A model generated the notes under the pieces. It saw only the letters and a list, made by a program, of their open reading frames with translations, did not search any database and was not told where the DNA came from. A stretch of DNA of 64,000 nucleotides. Origin: Psychrobacillus sp. FSL K6-2836 (GTDB taxonomy: Bacteria > Bacillota > Bacilli > Bacillales_A > Planococcaceae). Each line of letters opens with the position of its first letter. Within the stretch, counting starts at the first letter, position 1. The position numbers were made by a program, and so were the translations under genes. The DNA lies in the NCBI RefSeq assembly GCF_038003085.1, contig NZ_JBBOOM010000001.1:2914001-2978000 (forward strand), in the 5' to 3' direction. Below, one piece after another: positions 35,806-43,482 of the stretch.

Positions 35806-36786
35806 ATGCGGAAAAAAATTGTTCTTCTACTTGGTGCACTCATCATTGTTTTCAGTTATTTCACGATTATATCTGCAACAAAGGCTTTTCGATCCACAAG
35901 TGAATTACCTGCACCCCTTTCCAAGTTGGAGGATTCTGTTCGTATCGTACTAATCACGCAAGAGTTAGATACACCCTTTTGGAATAAGGTCGGACAAGGG
36001 GCCAAGGAGCAGGCTAAGAAAGAAAACGTTGAGCTGGAAGTGTGGGGAAGCTATGGAAATGACCAGGACGATTTTTTAAAAAAGATGGAGATTGCCATTC
36101 ATTCCAAAGTGGATGGGATCATCGTTCAGGGGCTAGATACCGAGGAATTTAAAGAGCTGTCAAAAATTAAAGCAGCCTTTTATGGAATTCCTGTCATCAC
36201 AGTTGCTAATGACGTTCCAGTGGAAGAAAGTTTGCGTAAAACATACGTCGGTTCGGATCAGTTCTGGGCAGGAAAGATGGTTGCCCATCAGCTCATTAAA
36301 GAAATGGGAACATCTGGGGAAGTCATAATTCTTGGGGATGAAGTGCAAGCATATTATCAAAAAGAACGTTTAGCAGGAATACAGGATGCTCTCGAAGGAT
36401 ATCCAGAGATTAACATAATCATTCGAGGAACAGAGGATACAAATGAACGAGTGATTTCGACAACCCAACAACTGATGAACGAAGCACCTAGAGCTACTGC
36501 GTTTATCGCGATCAATGCGAAATATGCAGGACCTATGATTCAGGAAATAGGAAGACGAACACAGGTGGAGCCATACCATATTTATACGTTTGATGATGGA
36601 GTTGAATCGACTACCCTTTTAGAGCAGGGAAAGCTAGATGGTATTTTAGAGCAAAAGCCTAAAGAAATGGGCAAGGAAAGTGTAAAGTGGCTCATGGAAT
36701 GGATTACAGGTAAGACGGTTCCGCTCGATTCCGATGGGTATTTGACGGAAACACATATGCTCGTACCGGATGGTGATACCCCATGA
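35806..36786 (+). CDS. Sugar-binding sensor protein associated with a two-component system
   Basis: 326 residues. An N-terminal membrane segment (LLLGALIIVFSYFTII) without lipobox Cys suggests an anchored extracytoplasmic protein. The binding-protein type 1 domain contains VRIVLITQELDTPFWNKVGQGAKEQA, GIIVQGLDTEEF and YVGSDQFWAG. The stop overlaps the kinase start (ATGA). By analogy with known binding-protein-dependent two-component systems it should present the sugar to the kinase rather than to the transporter. Confidence 0.85.
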   Translation: MRKKIVLLLGALIIVFSYFTIISATKAFRSTSELPAPLSKLEDSVRIVLITQELDTPFWNKVGQGAKEQAKKENVELEVWGSYGNDQDDFLKKMEIAIHSKVDGIIVQGLDTEEFKELSKIKAAFYGIPVITVANDVPVEESLRKTYVGSDQFWAGKMVAHQLIKEMGTSGEVIILGDEVQAYYQKERLAGIQDALEGYPEINIIIRGTEDTNERVISTTQQLMNEAPRATAFIAINAKYAGPMIQEIGRRTQVEPYHIYTFDDGVESTTLLEQGKLDGILEQKPKEMGKESVKWLMEWITGKTVPLDSDGYLTETHMLVPDGDTP

Positions 36787-38246
36787 CAACCATTCAACGA
36801 AAGATTTGGCTGCTCGTTTCCGTTATGCTACTCTCCATGGGAATTATTTGGATGATGCTAACATATTACAATCAGCAAACCCAGGAACAAACGAATACCA
36901 TTCTACAGCGCTATTTACGCATGAATGAAGTAACTATTGCTAGTCAAAAAATAATAACCGACTTAAATAACTACTTGCTGGACCCTTCAGAAGTGCATAA
37001 AACACAAATAAAAAAAAGCATTAAAACTATAGAGGAAGTTCAACATGATGTAGCAAAGCTTCGCAATGAAGAGAATGCATTTTCTGTTACGAATTATATA
37101 CATTTAATCGATAGTTTAGTGGAGACGGCAAATCGTTCTATACTATTTTCAGAGGAGCAGGAGTTAGAAGGTTCTACGAATGAATTCAATGAAGCGAATC
37201 GCATTTCACTGTACATATCTGAAATGACATTAACTATTTTAGATCGGGATTTAAAGACTTATAATCTTTTCTACCGAGAAATCATCGATCAGTCAGAGGA
37301 ATTAAAAAAGCTAGGAATTTGGATACTTCTACTAGTAACAGTTGTATTACTTTTGGCTACCTATTGGTTCTCGCTAAGTATTACAAAACCTGTTCATCAG
37401 CTAACGAAGGCAGCAAATGAGTTAGCACGGGGACGTTTCAATCAAAAAATAATAGTGGAATCTAACGATGAAATTGCATTCTTAGCTCAAACGTTTGATG
37501 AAATGCGTATTAATATTAATGACTTGATATTGGAGATTCAGCAAAAGGCACAGCTTGAGCATGAGTTGCAGCAGAGTAAGTTGCTGCTGAAGGAGAGTCA
37601 GTTAAGAAGTCTACAGAGTCAGATTAATCCTCATTTTCTATTTAACACATTGAATACTTTGTCCAAGAAGGCATATTTGGACGGGGCAGAAGAAACGAGC
37701 GACCTGTTAGTTAGTGTAGCCGGGTTATTGCGGTATAACCTAAAGCGAATAGATCGATCAGTTACTTTATATGAGGAAGTACTTGTGCTCAATCAATATA
37801 TGGAAATACAAAAAGCACGTTTTACGGACCGATTACATTTCCAGGCAACTATCGATGAATCATGCTTGCATGTCAATATCCCTGGTCTTACACTTCAGCC
37901 TATTATTGAAAACGCTGTCATCCATGCGATCGAACCAGAAGAGAATGGTGGTTCTATTTCTTTTAGAATTTTAAGAGATGGCTCATGGATTATTATTGAA
38001 ATAGAGGATAGCGGAAAAGGAATATCGAAGGAAAAAATAGATCAGCTACTTGAAGGACAAATCGATGCAAATGAAGGGCATTCCACTGGCATTGGTTTTC
38101 AAAATGTAGTAAAAAGGCTCCATCTATTTTACGGTGTGGAAAATTTAGTATCCATTGAAAGTAAAAAAGGCATTGGAACAAAGGTAATCATACAAATCCC
38201 AGAAACTAGGGAGGAGGTAAGTGATGAAACTTTTAATCGTGGATGA
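36783..38246 (+). CDS. LytS/YesM-type sensor histidine kinase
   Basis: 487 residues. Two membrane helices (about 8-27 and 178-198) flank an extracytoplasmic domain; HAMP covers about 198-252. The His_kinase motif is LQSQINPHFLFNTLNTL with His284. The HATPase boxes are LQPIIENAVIHAIE, DSGKGI and STGIGFQNV. It overlaps both neighbours, so the trio is translationally coupled. Confidence 0.93.
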   Translation: MTTIQRKIWLLVSVMLLSMGIIWMMLTYYNQQTQEQTNTILQRYLRMNEVTIASQKIITDLNNYLLDPSEVHKTQIKKSIKTIEEVQHDVAKLRNEENAFSVTNYIHLIDSLVETANRSILFSEEQELEGSTNEFNEANRISLYISEMTLTILDRDLKTYNLFYREIIDQSEELKKLGIWILLLVTVVLLLATYWFSLSITKPVHQLTKAANELARGRFNQKIIVESNDEIAFLAQTFDEMRININDLILEIQQKAQLEHELQQSKLLLKESQLRSLQSQINPHFLFNTLNTLSKKAYLDGAEETSDLLVSVAGLLRYNLKRIDRSVTLYEEVLVLNQYMEIQKARFTDRLHFQATIDESCLHVNIPGLTLQPIIENAVIHAIEPEENGGSISFRILRDGSWIIIEIEDSGKGISKEKIDQLLEGQIDANEGHSTGIGFQNVVKRLHLFYGVENLVSIESKKGIGTKVIIQIPETREEVSDETFNRG

Positions 38247-39768
38247 CGAACCAATTGAGCGAGCAGGAATGGAAGCCATCCTACAAAAGGCATTTCCAGA
38301 CCTTTTAATTGCACAGGCTAAAAATGGAAAGGTGGCAATCGAACTAACTGACAGTTTTCAGCCTGATTTGGTTTTAATGGACATCATGATGCCAGGCATG
38401 ACTGGGCTAGAAGCCATTGAAACAATTCAGGTTTCTCATCCTACTATCAAATTTGTGATGGTAACTGCTTTTGATATGTTTGATTATGCAAGACAGGCTA
38501 TCAAGCTTGGTGTGAAGGATTACGTATTGAAGCCAAGTAAAGCTAGCGAAATAGTTTTAACTGTTGGAAAAGTACTGGATGAGTGTCAGAAGGAGCAGAT
38601 GGCAACTAGTAATACCAATAGGCAAATCGAGAAGTGGGAGCAGGCATTTACCTTGGTGGAAACAGATATTGTCACCCAATTATTATTTGACCACGTACAT
38701 GAGGTTCATATTGATATGCTCGTAGAAATGCTTGATACTCGCTCTACACTTGAAAAGTTTGTTGTAGTAGTTGTATTACCAGAAGGAGCACTCAATTATT
38801 ATTTGCCAATAAAAAAAAGGGTTCGGGAAACTGGGGACGCTTGGGTAGGAGCTTTAAGCGGGAGGCAGCTCCCTCTAATTATTTTCCGAGATTCCAAGAG
38901 GAGCTTTCGTTCCCAAGCGATAGCTTTAGCTAAAGCCATTTTGTCTTTAGATAAGGAACGGCACGGAAAAGATTGGTTTTTGGGAATCGGTCAGGTGTGT
39001 CAAACACTGGATGACATTCGACAGTCTTACCAAGAGGCACTTATTGCAACTATGGATACAACTCTAGCGGTTAAATACCGGTTTTATGTGGATGTTCCAG
39101 CGCTTACTTTAGAAACAGATAATCAGATTATTAAGCAACAACAGAAAGATTTCTTTGACCATATTCGACTTGGAGACTGGATGGCTATTCGTACCAATTT
39201 GTTGGATATAATTCAGCAGTACGAAAATGTTGGGAATTCATTAATCTATACGCAGCAGCGAATACTGGAGCTACTTTGGGTGACAAATCGTGTGATGGAT
39301 GAAATGGGAATGAAAGCAAGTACATTATTTTTCTCCTTCCAAGCAAATGATTATCGACAGCTACGGACAGAGACATTATTATTGTTGGAACAGTTGAATT
39401 TTGAATATAATGCACATTATGATCAAATAGAAGCAGATAAAATCCACCAAATCCAACAGTATATTCTAGAACATTCGCATGAAGATATTTCTCTAGATAC
39501 GCTAGCACATCGAGTGAAATTAAGCCCGATTTATATTAGTAAAATGTTCAAAGAAAAGCTGGGGGTTAACTATATAGATTATCTAACGGAGTGTCGTATA
39601 GATAAAGCAAAGAAATTATTGAATGACTCAGAAAAAAGCTTAAAGGAAATTACCTTTGAGATTGGCTACCATGAACCAAATTATTTTAGTAAGGTATTTA
39701 AGAAAATGTGTGGGGTGTCTCCGAAGGAATATAGAAAAACATTATGGAGCAAAAAAGCTGAAGTGTAG
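38224..39768 (+). CDS. YesN-type response regulator with AraC DNA-binding domain
   Basis: 514 residues from ATG 38224, following GAGGAGG; the gene overlaps the kinase by 23 bases. The receiver has Asp53 in LVLMDIMMPGM and the switch region YVLKPSKASE. A long central region is followed by an AraC/XylS pair of HTHs: DISLDTLAHRVKLSPIYISKMFKEKLG and LKEITFEIGYHEPNYFSKVFKK. It probably activates the transporter operon and perhaps the next binding protein. Confidence 0.93.
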   Translation: MKLLIVDDEPIERAGMEAILQKAFPDLLIAQAKNGKVAIELTDSFQPDLVLMDIMMPGMTGLEAIETIQVSHPTIKFVMVTAFDMFDYARQAIKLGVKDYVLKPSKASEIVLTVGKVLDECQKEQMATSNTNRQIEKWEQAFTLVETDIVTQLLFDHVHEVHIDMLVEMLDTRSTLEKFVVVVVLPEGALNYYLPIKKRVRETGDAWVGALSGRQLPLIIFRDSKRSFRSQAIALAKAILSLDKERHGKDWFLGIGQVCQTLDDIRQSYQEALIATMDTTLAVKYRFYVDVPALTLETDNQIIKQQQKDFFDHIRLGDWMAIRTNLLDIIQQYENVGNSLIYTQQRILELLWVTNRVMDEMGMKASTLFFSFQANDYRQLRTETLLLLEQLNFEYNAHYDQIEADKIHQIQQYILEHSHEDISLDTLAHRVKLSPIYISKMFKEKLGVNYIDYLTECRIDKAKKLLNDSEKSLKEITFEIGYHEPNYFSKVFKKMCGVSPKEYRKTLWSKKAEV

Positions 39769-39780
39769 AGGGGGAGTCAG

Positions 39781-40842
39781 ATGAAAAATAAAATATTTTC
39801 TGTAAGCCTTTTAGGAGTAATTATGCTTCTTTTTGGCTGTACGGATACCTCTATACCTAAAACGCTTGAACCCGAAGTTAGCCCAGTCATGAAAGACGAT
39901 GCCCCAGTAAGGATTGGTTTTTCGATGGATACATTACTAGAAGAACGGTGGTTAAAAGACCGTGATTTGTTTAAAGAAGCTATAGAAGACCTTGGAGCAG
40001 AGGTAGAAATTGTTGCTGCAAATGGGGACGATGCGTTACAAATATCGCAAGCAGAGACACTCATCCAAAGCGGCATTGATCTTTTGGTAATCGTTCCTCA
40101 TAATGCTGCGGCTACAGCGGCAATTGTCCATAAAGCACATCTAGCAGGAATTCAAGTAATTGCCTATGATCGTCTCGTCAAAAATGCAGAGCTGGATATG
40201 TACGTATCCTTTGATAATGAGCAAGTTGGCAAAATGCAGGCAGAGGCTATGACAGCACTTGTCCCAAAGGGGAACTATGTCTTTATAGGAGGAGCCATTA
40301 CAGACAACAACGCCCATCTATTGAAAGAGGGCGTATTCAAGGTGTTACAACCGTATATTGAGCGAGGAGATATCCATGTTGTCTATGACCAGTGGACGAA
40401 AGATTGGACTCCTGTAAATGCACAGACCAATATGGAGCAAGCTATTCGTACCACGAATGGAGAGATTGACGCAGTAATTGCCGCGAATGATGCCACAGCA
40501 GGTGGTGCCATTCAAGCACTGGAAGACCATGGCTTAGCTAGTCAGATACCAGTAGCAGGACAAGACGCCGACCTAGCGGGTGTCCAACGAATTGTAGCAG
40601 GAACACAAACAATGACTGTCTATAAGCCTATTCATATGCTTACCCAAAAGGTAGCTGAAATAGCAGTCGCTATGGCAAAGGGGGAAACCGTAACAGCCAA
40701 CCAACAAGTCAATAATGGTAAGAAGGAAGTGCCATCGGTGTTGCTACCTCCAATTGCCGTAAATACAGACAATCTAGAAAGCACCGTTATTGAGGATGGG
40801 TTTCATGCAGCAGAAGAGGTTTATGGAAAAGGTAAAGAATAA
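39781..40842 (+). CDS. Second ChvE/XylF-like sugar-binding lipoprotein
   Basis: 353 residues with GGGGG upstream. The signal peptide ends at a lipobox (MLLFGC). The fold and motifs parallel the protein at 31599: VRIGFSMDTLLEERWLKDRD, LLVIVPHNAAATAAIVHKA, VIAYDRLVKNAELDMYVSF and VAGQDADLAGVQRIV. It is the last gene of the sensing operon, 12 bases after the regulator. It may feed the same ABC transporter with a different sugar. Confidence 0.9.
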   Translation: MKNKIFSVSLLGVIMLLFGCTDTSIPKTLEPEVSPVMKDDAPVRIGFSMDTLLEERWLKDRDLFKEAIEDLGAEVEIVAANGDDALQISQAETLIQSGIDLLVIVPHNAAATAAIVHKAHLAGIQVIAYDRLVKNAELDMYVSFDNEQVGKMQAEAMTALVPKGNYVFIGGAITDNNAHLLKEGVFKVLQPYIERGDIHVVYDQWTKDWTPVNAQTNMEQAIRTTNGEIDAVIAANDATAGGAIQALEDHGLASQIPVAGQDADLAGVQRIVAGTQTMTVYKPIHMLTQKVAEIAVAMAKGETVTANQQVNNGKKEVPSVLLPPIAVNTDNLESTVIEDGFHAAEEVYGKGKE

Positions 40843-40894: not shown

Positions 40895-40923
40895 TTGACT
40901 CTCATTTTAAATGATGCTATAGT
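40895..40923 (+). promoter_or_regulatory. Promoter of the attenuated MutS2-like gene
   Basis: TTGACT (40895-40900), 17 bases, TATAGT (40918-40923) is near-consensus for the housekeeping sigma factor. It implies a start near 40930 and a leader of about 380 nt before the MutS2-like gene. Confidence 0.8.
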
Positions 40924-40954
40924 GTAAATATTCTAATAAAAGGTGTGGTGAAGT

Positions 40955-40978
40955 ATGTCTGAAGTAGGTATGAGCTAA
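40955..40978 (+). CDS. Putative leader peptide MSEVGMS
   Basis: Seven codons plus stop, with AAAGGTGTGGTG just upstream. The coding bases GTAGGTAT (40964-40971) can pair with ATACCTAC (41066-41073), so a ribosome stalled or delayed on the leader would change downstream folding. The architecture resembles antibiotic-responsive leaders of resistance genes; expression is inferred. Confidence 0.6.
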   Translation: MSEVGMS

Positions 40979-41216
40979 TTTTCATTAGTTTAATAAGGTG
41001 TTTAAAAACCTGGTGATAAACCAGCTTGTTTAGTACGCCTTGTTCTACATTGTTTTTCAATGTGGATACCTACCTGAAGACTGCTTCCGCATCCCTTGTT
41101 CGTTTAACATGATGTATGTTAGAACGAAGAGCGTGGTGGGATTTGTCCTGCTGCGCTCATTTTTCTTGGCCTCTTTTTGTGAACGATTTGTATGCTTTGT
41201 CTAATATACTTGGCAG
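40979..41216 (+). promoter_or_regulatory. Structured leader with successive hairpins
   Basis: Hairpins visible in order: AAGGTGTTTAAA with a nested CTGG/CCAG and closing CGCCTT (about 40987-41042); CTACATTG/CAATGTGG (41045-41065); TTCGTTTAACAT/ATGTTAGAACGAA, extended by ATCCC/GGGAT (about 41090-41140); GAGCG/CGCTC followed by ATTTTTC (about 41129-41166). Several are mutually exclusive with the leader-peptide pairing, as in attenuators. Confidence 0.6.
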
Positions 41217-41287
41217 ATGCCCGCAGGAGCTTTCTATCCATTTTTTGAAATGGAGTGGTAGGAGGATTTTTTGCGGGCATTTTTTTA
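41217..41287 (+). terminator. Attenuator terminator before the MutS2-like gene
   Basis: ATGCCCGCA (41217-41225) pairs with TGCGGGCAT (41272-41280), with an inner TCCATTTTTTGAAATGGA hairpin, and is followed by seven T. It ends about 10 bases before the GGAGG of the gene, so the gene can be expressed only if this terminator is bypassed. Confidence 0.85.
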
Positions 41288-41310
41288 TTATTTTAAGTGG
41301 AGGTAAGAAA

Positions 41311-43215
41311 ATGAATAAGATGACATATGAAAAATTACAATATAACGAACTTAAAGAAATGGTGAAATCCTACTGCGTTAGCAGCTTAGGAAAGGAATTA
41401 TTGGATAATCTTTTCCCAAGTCCAAACAGTAAAGTGGTGAAAAATAGACTTAACGAGACAACCGAGGCAAGAAAGTTATTAGATGCAGAAAATCATCTTC
41501 CGTTAAAGGGTATCTCCAATATTAGTCACCTCATGGAGAAACTTGAGAAAGGGATTATTTTAGGACCGTCTGAATTAGTAGCAATATCAGATTTCTTAAG
41601 AGGGTGTAGGGTGATTAAGAAATTTATGTTAGGAAAAGAATTTTTTGCGCCTATTCTTCACTCTTATGCTTATTCCATGATGGAGTTTACGACTATTGAG
41701 GAAACGATTAATGCTTCTATTAGAGGGAATATGGTGGATTCTGAAGCGAGCAGAGAGTTAAAGCGTATAAGAAATCAAATAGCAAAAACCGAAGAAAAGA
41801 TAGAGGAGAGGCTGAATAAATTTCTCAAAAGTAGTGCCAACAAAGAATATATACAGGAATTTTTTATTAGTAAAAAAGATGATAGATTTACTATCCCGAT
41901 TAAAGCTTCCTATAAAAACCAAGTGCAGGGTACGATAATTGAGTCATCTTCTAAAGGATCTACAGTGTTTATCGAACCAGTAACGATCACTAAACTTAAC
42001 GGAGAGCTTGCAATTCTTAAATCGGAGGAATCGATAGAAGAGTATCAAATTTTAGCGACTATTTCAGGAATGATTCAAGAGGAAGTTAGACAAATTCATA
42101 TTAATATTGAATTGATTGCTCAGTATGACATGATTTTTGCAAAAGCAAAATTTAGTAAAAGCATCGATGGCATTGAACCGAAGTTAAACAATTATGGATA
42201 TATCCATTTAAAAAATTGTAAGCATCCACTTTTACCTGGCAACATCGTACCTCTAGATTTTGAAATTGGAAAGGACTATCGCAGCTTGATAATAACTGGA
42301 CCAAATGCAGGAGGAAAAACGGTTGTGCTGAAGACAATTGGTATTTTAACTCTTGCTGTCATGTCGGGATTTCATATAGCCGCTGATGTTGAGACGGAAA
42401 TATCGGTGTTTGATAACCTATTTGTCGATATCGGAGACAATCAAAGCATTGAAAATTCCCTTAGCACTTTTTCGTCGCATATGAAAAATATTTCGGAAAT
42501 TATGAGTGCATCGACGAATAATACATTGCTTCTTTTTGATGAAATAGGAAGTGGAACCGAACCAAATGAAGGGGCAGCACTAGCTATTGCAATCCTGGAA
42601 GAATTTTATCAAATGGGCTGTATTACCGTCGCAACGACTCACTATGGAGAGATAAAGCGTTACTCAGAAATCCATAGTGACTTTATGAATGCGGCGATGC
42701 AGTTTGACAGTGAAGCATTAGAGCCGATGTATAAGCTTCTCATTGGTAAATCAGGGGAAAGTAATGCTCTATGGATTTCTAAAAAAATGAATATACAAGA
42801 AAAAGTTCTCAAAAAAGCGCAAAATTATATGGAAAACAAAACGTATGATTTAGAACGGGTGAGAGAAAATAAAATAAAAAAACCAACTACTATAATGGCG
42901 CCAAATGAAGAAACGTACAACTTCGAAAGAGGAGACAGAGTAAAGTTACTTGAACATGACGATTTTGGTATCGTGTATGAGAAAAAGGATCAACAGAATA
43001 ATGTGTCTGTTTTCTATAAAAACGAAGTAATAAAGCAAAATGTGAAAAGAATCGTGTTGGAGGGAAAAGCAGCCGACTTATACCCAGAAGGATACGATCT
43101 ATCAACATTATTTATAAGCTATGCAGAAAGGAAATTCACGCATGACATGGAAAGAGGGTCCAAAAAAGCTTTAAGAAAAATAGCTAAGGAAATAAAAAAG
43201 AGAACGGATGATTAG
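41311..43215 (+). CDS. MutS2-like ATPase lacking the Smr nuclease domain
   Basis: 634 residues from ATG 41311 (after GTGGAGG); the open frame extends upstream through the terminator but that part is leader. MutS2 core and clamp regions: DRFTIPIKASYKNQVQGTII and GSTVFIEP. ATPase: Walker A GPNAGGKTVVL (330-340), Walker B LLLFDEIGSGTEP (about 407-419), ATTHYGEIK. A KOW-like segment FERGDRVKLLEHDDFGIV precedes a short basic tail. Full-length MutS2 is about 780 residues with a C-terminal Smr domain, absent here. MutS2 acts on collided ribosomes in B. subtilis, so a drug-inducible ribosome-rescue paralog is a reasonable inference. Confidence 0.9.
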   Translation: MNKMTYEKLQYNELKEMVKSYCVSSLGKELLDNLFPSPNSKVVKNRLNETTEARKLLDAENHLPLKGISNISHLMEKLEKGIILGPSELVAISDFLRGCRVIKKFMLGKEFFAPILHSYAYSMMEFTTIEETINASIRGNMVDSEASRELKRIRNQIAKTEEKIEERLNKFLKSSANKEYIQEFFISKKDDRFTIPIKASYKNQVQGTIIESSSKGSTVFIEPVTITKLNGELAILKSEESIEEYQILATISGMIQEEVRQIHINIELIAQYDMIFAKAKFSKSIDGIEPKLNNYGYIHLKNCKHPLLPGNIVPLDFEIGKDYRSLIITGPNAGGKTVVLKTIGILTLAVMSGFHIAADVETEISVFDNLFVDIGDNQSIENSLSTFSSHMKNISEIMSASTNNTLLLFDEIGSGTEPNEGAALAIAILEEFYQMGCITVATTHYGEIKRYSEIHSDFMNAAMQFDSEALEPMYKLLIGKSGESNALWISKKMNIQEKVLKKAQNYMENKTYDLERVRENKIKKPTTIMAPNEETYNFERGDRVKLLEHDDFGIVYEKKDQQNNVSVFYKNEVIKQNVKRIVLEGKAADLYPEGYDLSTLFISYAERKFTHDMERGSKKALRKIAKEIKKRTDD

Positions 43216-43305: not shown

Positions 43306-43482
43306 ATGAGTAAAAATAACAATAAGACGGTAAATGTAAGAACGCACAATAGTTATGAATTGTACAAGAATCCTACGAATAATCCGGACGAGGAATTTTC
43401 AGAAGAGTTTGTGGAGATTTCCAAAAATAAGATAACGAATGAAATTAATAAAAACCCATCTAACAAAAGAAAAAATAATTAG
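43306..43482 (+). CDS. Small hypothetical protein (58 residues)
   Basis: A near-perfect AGGAGGTGA lies 7 bases before the ATG and a terminator follows directly. The protein is hydrophilic, rich in Asn and Lys, with an acidic centre (NPDEEFSEEFVEIS). There is no signal peptide or membrane segment. Family not recognised; it is likely a real gene because of the strong translation signals. Confidence 0.6.
   Translation: MSKNNNKTVNVRTHNSYELYKNPTNNPDEEFSEEFVEISKNKITNEINKNPSNKRKNN

Follow-up and report, generated by a model that had tools for sequence, protein, structure and literature searches.

The 64,000-nucleotide (nt) stretch of Psychrobacillus sp. FSL K6-2836 analysed here (contig NZ_JBBOOM010000001.1, positions 2,914,001 to 2,978,000; hereafter the window) carries, at positions 40895 to 43215, a gene for a MutS2-like ATPase of 634 amino acids (aa) that lacks an Smr domain and is preceded by an attenuator-type leader. 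The locus is probably a self-contained stall-inducible ribosome-rescue gene, in which ribosome-mediated attenuation controls an Smr-less MutS2-type ATPase that likely splits inhibitor-stalled ribosomes. Computation shows the anatomy of the leader, its conservation and covariation, a folding switch, and its association with the gene.

In the proposed mechanism, a ribosome that translates a seven-codon leader open reading frame (ORF) and leaves would allow the bases of the ORF to pair with a downstream segment, element 2, as an anti-antiterminator; the main terminator, T2, would then fold and the ATPase gene would not be transcribed. A ribosome stalled on the leader ORF would cover element 1, the half of the anti-antiterminator that lies within the ORF, and so free element 2, which could pair with the 5' arm of T2 as an antiterminator and let RNA polymerase read through. 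In a second class of leaders, type B (the window's being type A), a post-terminator element would additionally hide the ribosome binding site (RBS) of the gene. The product would be a MutS2-type ATPase that retains the splitting core and a KOW-like segment, with a short conserved tail where Smr would otherwise sense collisions, and it would most likely split ribosomes stalled by translation inhibitors, whether collided or not.

Anatomy, conservation and folding of the leader

All elements of the locus lie on the forward strand. A promoter-like site at 40895..40923 (TTGACT and TATAGT separated by 17 nt, with TG before the -10 box) agrees with 10 of 12 consensus positions, which bears out the near-consensus promoter named in an earlier note made from the sequence of this DNA; TTGAC lies 5' of the -10 box in all 12 window-type leaders inspected by eye. 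Taken overall, the promoter scan was not above chance (9 sites found, 10.0 expected). The RBS of the leader ORF (AAGGTGTGGTG, 40940..40950) is near-invariant in leader alignments A1 and A3, and the ORF itself (40955..40978) encodes MSEVGMS*. Element 1 (GUAGGUAU, 40964..40971), inside this ORF, is complementary to AUACCUAC at 41066-41073, 95 nt downstream. The latter is part of element 2 (AUACCUACC...AGACUGCUUCC, 41066..41088), whose partner is the free leader ORF or, if the ORF is masked, the terminator 5' arm. T2, the main intrinsic terminator (41219..41286), consists of a GC-rich stem (41219-41278) followed by seven T (41280-41286) and is conserved in A1. Just 3' of it lie the RBS of the ATPase gene (41298..41304) and the gene (41311..43215), which begins with ATG at 41311 and whose stop codon ends at 43215. 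The seven-codon ORF with its RBS, the pairing across 95 nt and the terminator with seven T before the RBS had all been described in the earlier note, and each was found in place.

A first terminator-like hairpin, T1 (41129..41164; hairpin 41129-41158 plus a T-run), which the earlier note did not name, lies between element 2 and T2. Both-side changed pairs occur in T1 in the A1 fold, and T1 is retained in most aligned type A leaders, being degenerate in L017, L018, L058 and L082 and absent from L021. In five loci of the same genus (L008, L009, L011, L013 and L015), additional stretches were seen by eye between the terminator and the gene; those in L008, L009 and L015 have the appearance of inverted repeats with a similar CGCCAAGGC end and may represent a small mobile element within the leader.

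Conservation was assessed at 108 loci, in which some genes are present twice (two collections) and from which the partial loci L096 and L111 were excluded; 80 of 86 matching loci were taken from a collection of named genomes, mainly of Bacillales together with Clostridia and Enterococcus. A pattern search found a leader ORF, mostly of seven codons, at 104 of the 108 loci (92 distinct leaders), and a second inspection added L063 (MSAVVSK) and L090 (MSAVAAN), giving 106 of 108. At L095 the pattern had picked the wrong ORF, the fitting one being MSVLGSK. The peptide is mostly MSxVG[IMV][NS] in type A and mostly MS[AV]V[VG]S[KN] in type B; it is MSVSI in Enterococcus and xxxxVLN in a more distant Smr-less clade (34-40% identical) found in genomes of the class.

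The original pattern required AGT or AGC at codon 2 for type B and T as the first letter of codon 2 for type A. A recount was anchored on codons 4-8 only and was hence blind to codon 2. The type A anchor occurs at 55 loci, where serine 2 is encoded by TCN in 43 of the 44 distinct leaders. The type B anchor occurs at 38 loci with 37 distinct leaders, of which 35 encode serine 2 by AGY and the other two have an ORF of different length; 15 of the 108 loci have neither anchor. This use of two unlinked sets of serine codons suggests that the serine residue itself is under selection in types A and B. The distant clade has 20 loci with its anchor, each with ATG or GTG exactly 12 nt 5' of it, and codon 2 encodes serine in 11 of these (AGY in 7, TCG in 4), leucine in 7, threonine in 1 and phenylalanine in 1.

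The 405-nt leader of the window folds at -143.3 kcal/mol (z -8.5), a value that none of 100 shuffled sequences equalled. In the type A core alignment (A3), 98.2% of cells are paired and 11 of 35 pairs are changed on both sides; in the type B core alignment (A4), these values are 95.3% and 8 of 25. For both types, none of 500 shuffles equalled the paired and both-side-change values or the covariation score, and further pair types were matched by 0/500 shuffles (type A) and 11/500 (type B); because the leaders are related and the structures were drawn from the same alignments, these counts are not probabilities. Among the helices that join leader ORF and element 2, helix 2 of type A has 98.9% of its cells paired and both-side changes at 2 of its 7 pairs, and the corresponding helices 1 and 2 of type B have one such pair; much of the ORF-element 2 helices is invariant in both types. 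The distant clade has the same design in a similar place with different letters, GUUCUUAAC pairing with GUUAAGAAC. A count of ungapped complements is by itself weak, with a mean of 7.4 Watson-Crick pairs against 6.2 in the control (91 leaders). We rejected a T-box, a riboswitch or another Rfam family, since the eight matches of a relaxed search in the leader were all below the gathering score and five relatives gave none.

For the switch test, nascent transcripts ending within the terminator were folded with and without a ribosome mask over the leader ORF. When 22 nt of T2 have been made in the window leader, the pairing between element 2 and the T2 5' arm is 0.0 nt unmasked and 9.0 nt masked; with 14 nt of T2 made, the masked value is 4.0 nt. 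Pairing of at least 4 nt is reached in 39 of 41 type A leaders when masked, in 4 of 41 when unmasked, and in 51 of 246 shuffled arms. These 41 are the distinct leaders from 55 loci, with duplicates counted once and three dropped for a missing motif. By the same measure, type B leaders switch in 28 of 44 cases masked and 1 of 44 unmasked, with 71 of 264 shuffled arms. The type B set comes from 49 loci, four having been dropped for want of a recognisable element 2, and includes L095, with the wrong ORF, and L028, where the script took another hairpin as the terminator. Half or more of the gene RBS is paired in 43 of 44 type B leaders, and the site is paired in the free fold of the window leader. 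The post-terminator element of type B (GUAGGUAUCUUCAU) uses its UCUUC to pair with the gene RBS and is at the same time a complete or near-complete complement of element 2 (AUGAAGAUACCUAC).

The leader is tied to the gene. Among 261 genomes of the same family, covariance models matched the type A core in 19 and the type B core in 42, once per genome, and 58 of these 61 matches lie just 5' of a homologue by a by-eye comparison, some of the genes being disrupted (G130, G027, G062, G069). As for the remaining three, only the first codons of the gene are left in G125, G035 has an internal deletion, and G174 has no gene in the stretch fetched. Seven of the 65 homologues lack a model match, namely that of G012 and those of six genomes of one genus (g12), and on inspection each has its own kind of leader ORF. 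In 378 genomes of the class, all nine matches of the type B model lie 5' of a homologue, and no leader-model match was found outside the sites described in either set of genomes. The leader models gave no match for the full-length mutS2 of this genome, which starts within 10 nt of a 485-aa ORF on its 5' side. The attenuator-type leader proposed in the earlier note is thus upheld by the leader ORF at 106 loci, the conserved T2, the covariation and the masked switch in 39 of 41 leaders. That note had also proposed aligning the homologues, which yields Smr-less copies with conserved leader ORF and terminator, and folding the leader with covariation, which yields a covarying structure that 0/500 shuffles reach.

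A MutS2-type ATPase without an Smr domain

The 634-aa protein scores 592.6 bits against the TIGR01069 mutS2 model, whose cut-off is 400, with profile positions 2-524 of 790 covered, and Pfam MutS_V and MutS_III match it; the mismatch-binding domains gave no Pfam match. Pfam Smr (PF01713) matches neither this protein nor any of 55 aligned family members, in agreement with the earlier note's MutS2 ATPase core without Smr. The full-length MutS2 of the same genome is 37% identical to the 634-aa protein and has both Smr (PF01713, 1.1e-27) and MSSS domains; the genome also contains a third, more distant MutS-like match. A frameshifted Smr domain downstream of the gene, which the earlier note had raised as a possible explanation, is ruled out: the protein is 620-660 aa long at 102 of 108 loci and shorter at the other six, so that the missing Smr domain is a trait of the family.

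The MutS2 core extends from residue 1 to ~520 and is followed by a KOW-like barrel (~543-585) and a conserved tail (~587-620). The ATPase motifs GPNAGGKT, DEIGSGTEP and TTHY are invariant across the 55 members, the coiled-coil region is shortened relative to full-length MutS2 in the alignment, and the top structural matches are MutS2 entries, including 7qv3 on a collided disome. In place of Smr stands the tail, ~LYPxGYDLxxLFxxxxxRKxxxDxxRGSKKA, which the earlier note did not name and in which LYP, Y, F, RK, D and RGSK are invariant in the 55 members. The AlphaFold2 model (mean predicted local distance difference test score, pLDDT, 82.7; predicted template modelling score, pTM, 0.68) has five strands at ~543-585 and then helices. 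The KOW-like segment gave no Pfam match (PF20297) among family members. The C-terminal profiles of the window's clade and of the distant Smr-less clade align at E 4.8e-24, the segment of the distant clade matches canonical KOW at E 3.2e-5, and the first half of the tail is present after it.

A reading of the protein as part of a defence system was set aside, the only PADLOC match being to AbiLi at E 3.5e-4 across 40 residues.

Distribution and surroundings

Homologues are present in 65 of 261 genomes of the same family (E 1e-120) and in 13 of 19 genomes of the same genus, the nearest named loci being those of Psychrobacillus, with up to 94% protein identity. Full-length MutS2 is present in all 16 genomes of the genus that were searched, the window's own included, and in 23 of 25 genomes overall. 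A tree of 91 sequences groups the ten full-length MutS2 proteins into one clade (support 1.0), and the distant Smr-less clade (0.997) and the window's clade are each separate from it. The tree alone does not prove that the Smr-less forms arose once; the tail common to both clades argues that they did.

Phage-collection records labelled as Enterococcus or Listeria phages contain tail-bearing homologues of 637-642 aa whose leader ORF encodes MSVVGI or MSVAGI. Three such phage-labelled records (L244, L245 and L248) hold a complete Smr-less MutS2-like gene with a leader ORF; since they are unverified and probably contain host DNA, the host of these copies is uncertain. The same leader-ORF search found none in another Listeria-labelled record, which carries a full-length MutS2 of 785 aa. 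A 2.6-Mb record of Acetoanaerobium noterae filed as a plasmid has one homologue, with the leader ORF MSVIVLL.

The neighbours of the gene do not support a conserved partner, as their clusters are mainly at the level of genera; the largest, in 16 named loci, is a group of ABC-type ATPases in variable position, and the others are mostly genus groups. In the window, a 58-aa ORF with an RBS-like AGGAGGTG and no Pfam match lies directly 3' of the ATPase gene (43306-43482, forward strand). Four consecutive genes lie 5' of the locus on the same strand (35806-40842); Pfam identifies the last two as an AraC-type response regulator and a sugar-type periplasmic binding protein, and by eye the first two resemble a binding protein and a sensor kinase. 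Further upstream, a Bacillaceae-1 RNA (RF01690, 29700-29766, forward strand) scores 47.3 bits, which exceeds the gathering score; no other Rfam family did so in the window.

Interpretation and comparison with known systems

Several points weigh against a stall-inducible ribosome-rescue gene. The drug trigger, the splitting activity and resistance are parts of the proposal that we infer from sequence and from analogy, and the covariation counts carry the limit stated with them. L087 and L092 had no leader ORF after the pattern search and the second inspection. Leader peptides vary, with five residues (MSVSI) in Enterococcus and three codons (MSV*) in G012 by eye, and those of the distant clade (MLxxVLN, MTAGVLN, MFEVVLN) tolerate other residues, so that a drug-specific peptide arrest is not established. 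In the switch test, masked pairing in the window leader drops to 3.4 nt when most of the 3' arm has been made and to 0.0 with all of T2 present, no switch is seen in 16 of 44 type B leaders, and shuffled-arm controls reach 21% (type A) and 27% (type B). On folding, the complete window leader keeps T2 even under the ribosome mask, and in full-leader folds the terminator persists in the 13 type B leaders where one was located; any antitermination would therefore have to depend on timing. In the protein, the KOW-like segment of the window's clade showed no significant match when compared directly with canonical MutS2 (probability 0.6%). According to excerpts from PMC10897456, removal of Smr from Bacillus subtilis MutS2 strongly lowers ribosome binding, and a Smr-less form must consequently bind in another way.

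The variable peptides, which show no evident drug-arrest motif of the RLR kind, also bear on what the leader senses. Attenuation might operate as described with an internal stress as its natural trigger (failed termination, cold, starvation or phage shut-off), the ATPase serving as a stress-time backup for full-length MutS2. The solitary gene, whose neighbours are common mainly within genera, is consistent with this; the patchy distribution (65/261 genomes; 13/19 in the genus) and decayed copies resemble an optional resistance function, and the architecture agrees with the drug-induced vmlR and hflXr, so we consider an internal trigger possible although rather unlikely. The leader logic shared with the ABC-F gene vmlR (excerpts from PMC9226507) could also suit a protein that displaces bound drug, as resistance ABC-F proteins do, without splitting the ribosome, and the conserved basic tail with RGSKKA could reach into the ribosome. 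However, the fold is that of the MutS2 core, whose known ribosomal activity, in excerpts from PMC10897456, is splitting, and drug displacement appears improbable.

That the protein is a DNA-acting MutS homologue, engaged in anti-recombination or repair and translation-regulated by happenstance, seems more doubtful still. MutS2 proteins are annotated as endonucleases and linked to anti-recombination in published abstracts, and Pfam MutS_V and MutS_III match here, but the protein has no mismatch-binding domain or Smr match, its close structural match 7qv3 is on the ribosome, and DNA repair would have little use for a leader that senses stalling. Least credible of all is an ordinary structured 5' untranslated region with pairing by chance. 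The chance-level promoter scan and the weak ungapped complements (7.4 against 6.2) would fit it; the fold at z -8.5, covariation that exceeds 500 shuffles, and the retention of a leader tied to the gene across Bacilli and some Clostridia speak otherwise, and the covariation and co-occurrence already contradict it.

Stall-inducible attenuation of a Smr-less ribosome splitter, the reading we prefer, would connect a known ribosome splitter with the way in which resistance genes are regulated. We are evenly divided on the broader proposal that collision-independent splitters form a widespread family, carried by Bacilli and some Clostridia and present in enterococci, which attenuators silence and ribosome-targeting antibiotics induce. 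If this were so, the lost collision check would explain the tight lock on expression, and the family would be a further kind of stall-induced ribosome-acting resistance factor beside ABC-F proteins and HflXr. The family is a candidate basis of intrinsic tolerance to drugs that target the ribosome, and a natural Smr-less MutS2 raises the question of whether ribosome splitting can bypass collision sensing. In excerpts, PMC11633108 concludes that MutS2 is probably not the sole splitting factor of B. subtilis, and the Smr-less MutS2-like gene of the genomes analysed here is a candidate for such an additional factor.

In the open-access literature searched, we found no Smr-less MutS2 or attenuated mutS2 from bacteria; a plant paper (PMC12292046) contains the phrase 'lacks the Smr domain' once, and 'MutS' does not occur in PMC2965389. 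Among named protein families, KamC, the MutS-like reactivase of lysine 5,6-aminomutase, gave an NCBIfam match of 214.9 bits, under the model cut-off of 300. The likeness is to MutS2 (TIGR01069), with which the protein shares the clamp, lever and ATPase core, intact ATPase motifs and the best structural matches; it differs in belonging to a Smr-less family with a shortened coiled-coil region, a conserved tail and its own attenuator leader. As described in excerpts from PMC10897456, B. subtilis MutS2 binds collided ribosomes through Smr and KOW and splits stalled ribosomes by its ATPase, and its loss causes sensitivity to chloramphenicol, tetracycline and erythromycin; its authors allow that KOW contacts may permit partial activity without Smr. 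The splitting without RNA cleavage that the earlier note had inferred for the present protein does not set it apart because, in the same excerpts, B. subtilis MutS2 likewise does not cleave messenger RNA. Since it uses Smr for binding, loss of Smr would be the loss of a collision sensor and not of a nuclease.

For the leader, the closest parallels are vmlR and hflXr, each known here from excerpts. The drug-induced ABC-F gene vmlR of B. subtilis has an upstream ORF of three codons (MIN) that lies in the anti-antiterminator stem; its leader also contains a terminator, and a stem covers the gene RBS (PMC9226507). The tiny ORF in the anti-antiterminator stem and the intrinsic terminator recur here, and a predicted RBS hairpin is clearest in type B, whereas the ORF of three codons and the ABC-F product do not, and the likeness is one of architecture and not of established leader homology. 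In Listeria monocytogenes, the attenuator rli80 controls HflXr, an additional copy of a splitting GTPase, which confers resistance to lincomycin and erythromycin (PMC6310831). Here too an extra copy of a putative ribosome-splitting factor is preceded by a leader ORF with anti-antiterminator, antiterminator and terminator, although HflXr is a GTPase of the HflX family and an unrelated protein, and its leader peptide has 14 aa with RLR, as against seven codons without RLR here. Together, the precedents of vmlR, hflXr and B. subtilis MutS2, as the excerpts present them, point to a putative splitter freed from collision sensing and held off until ribosomes stall.

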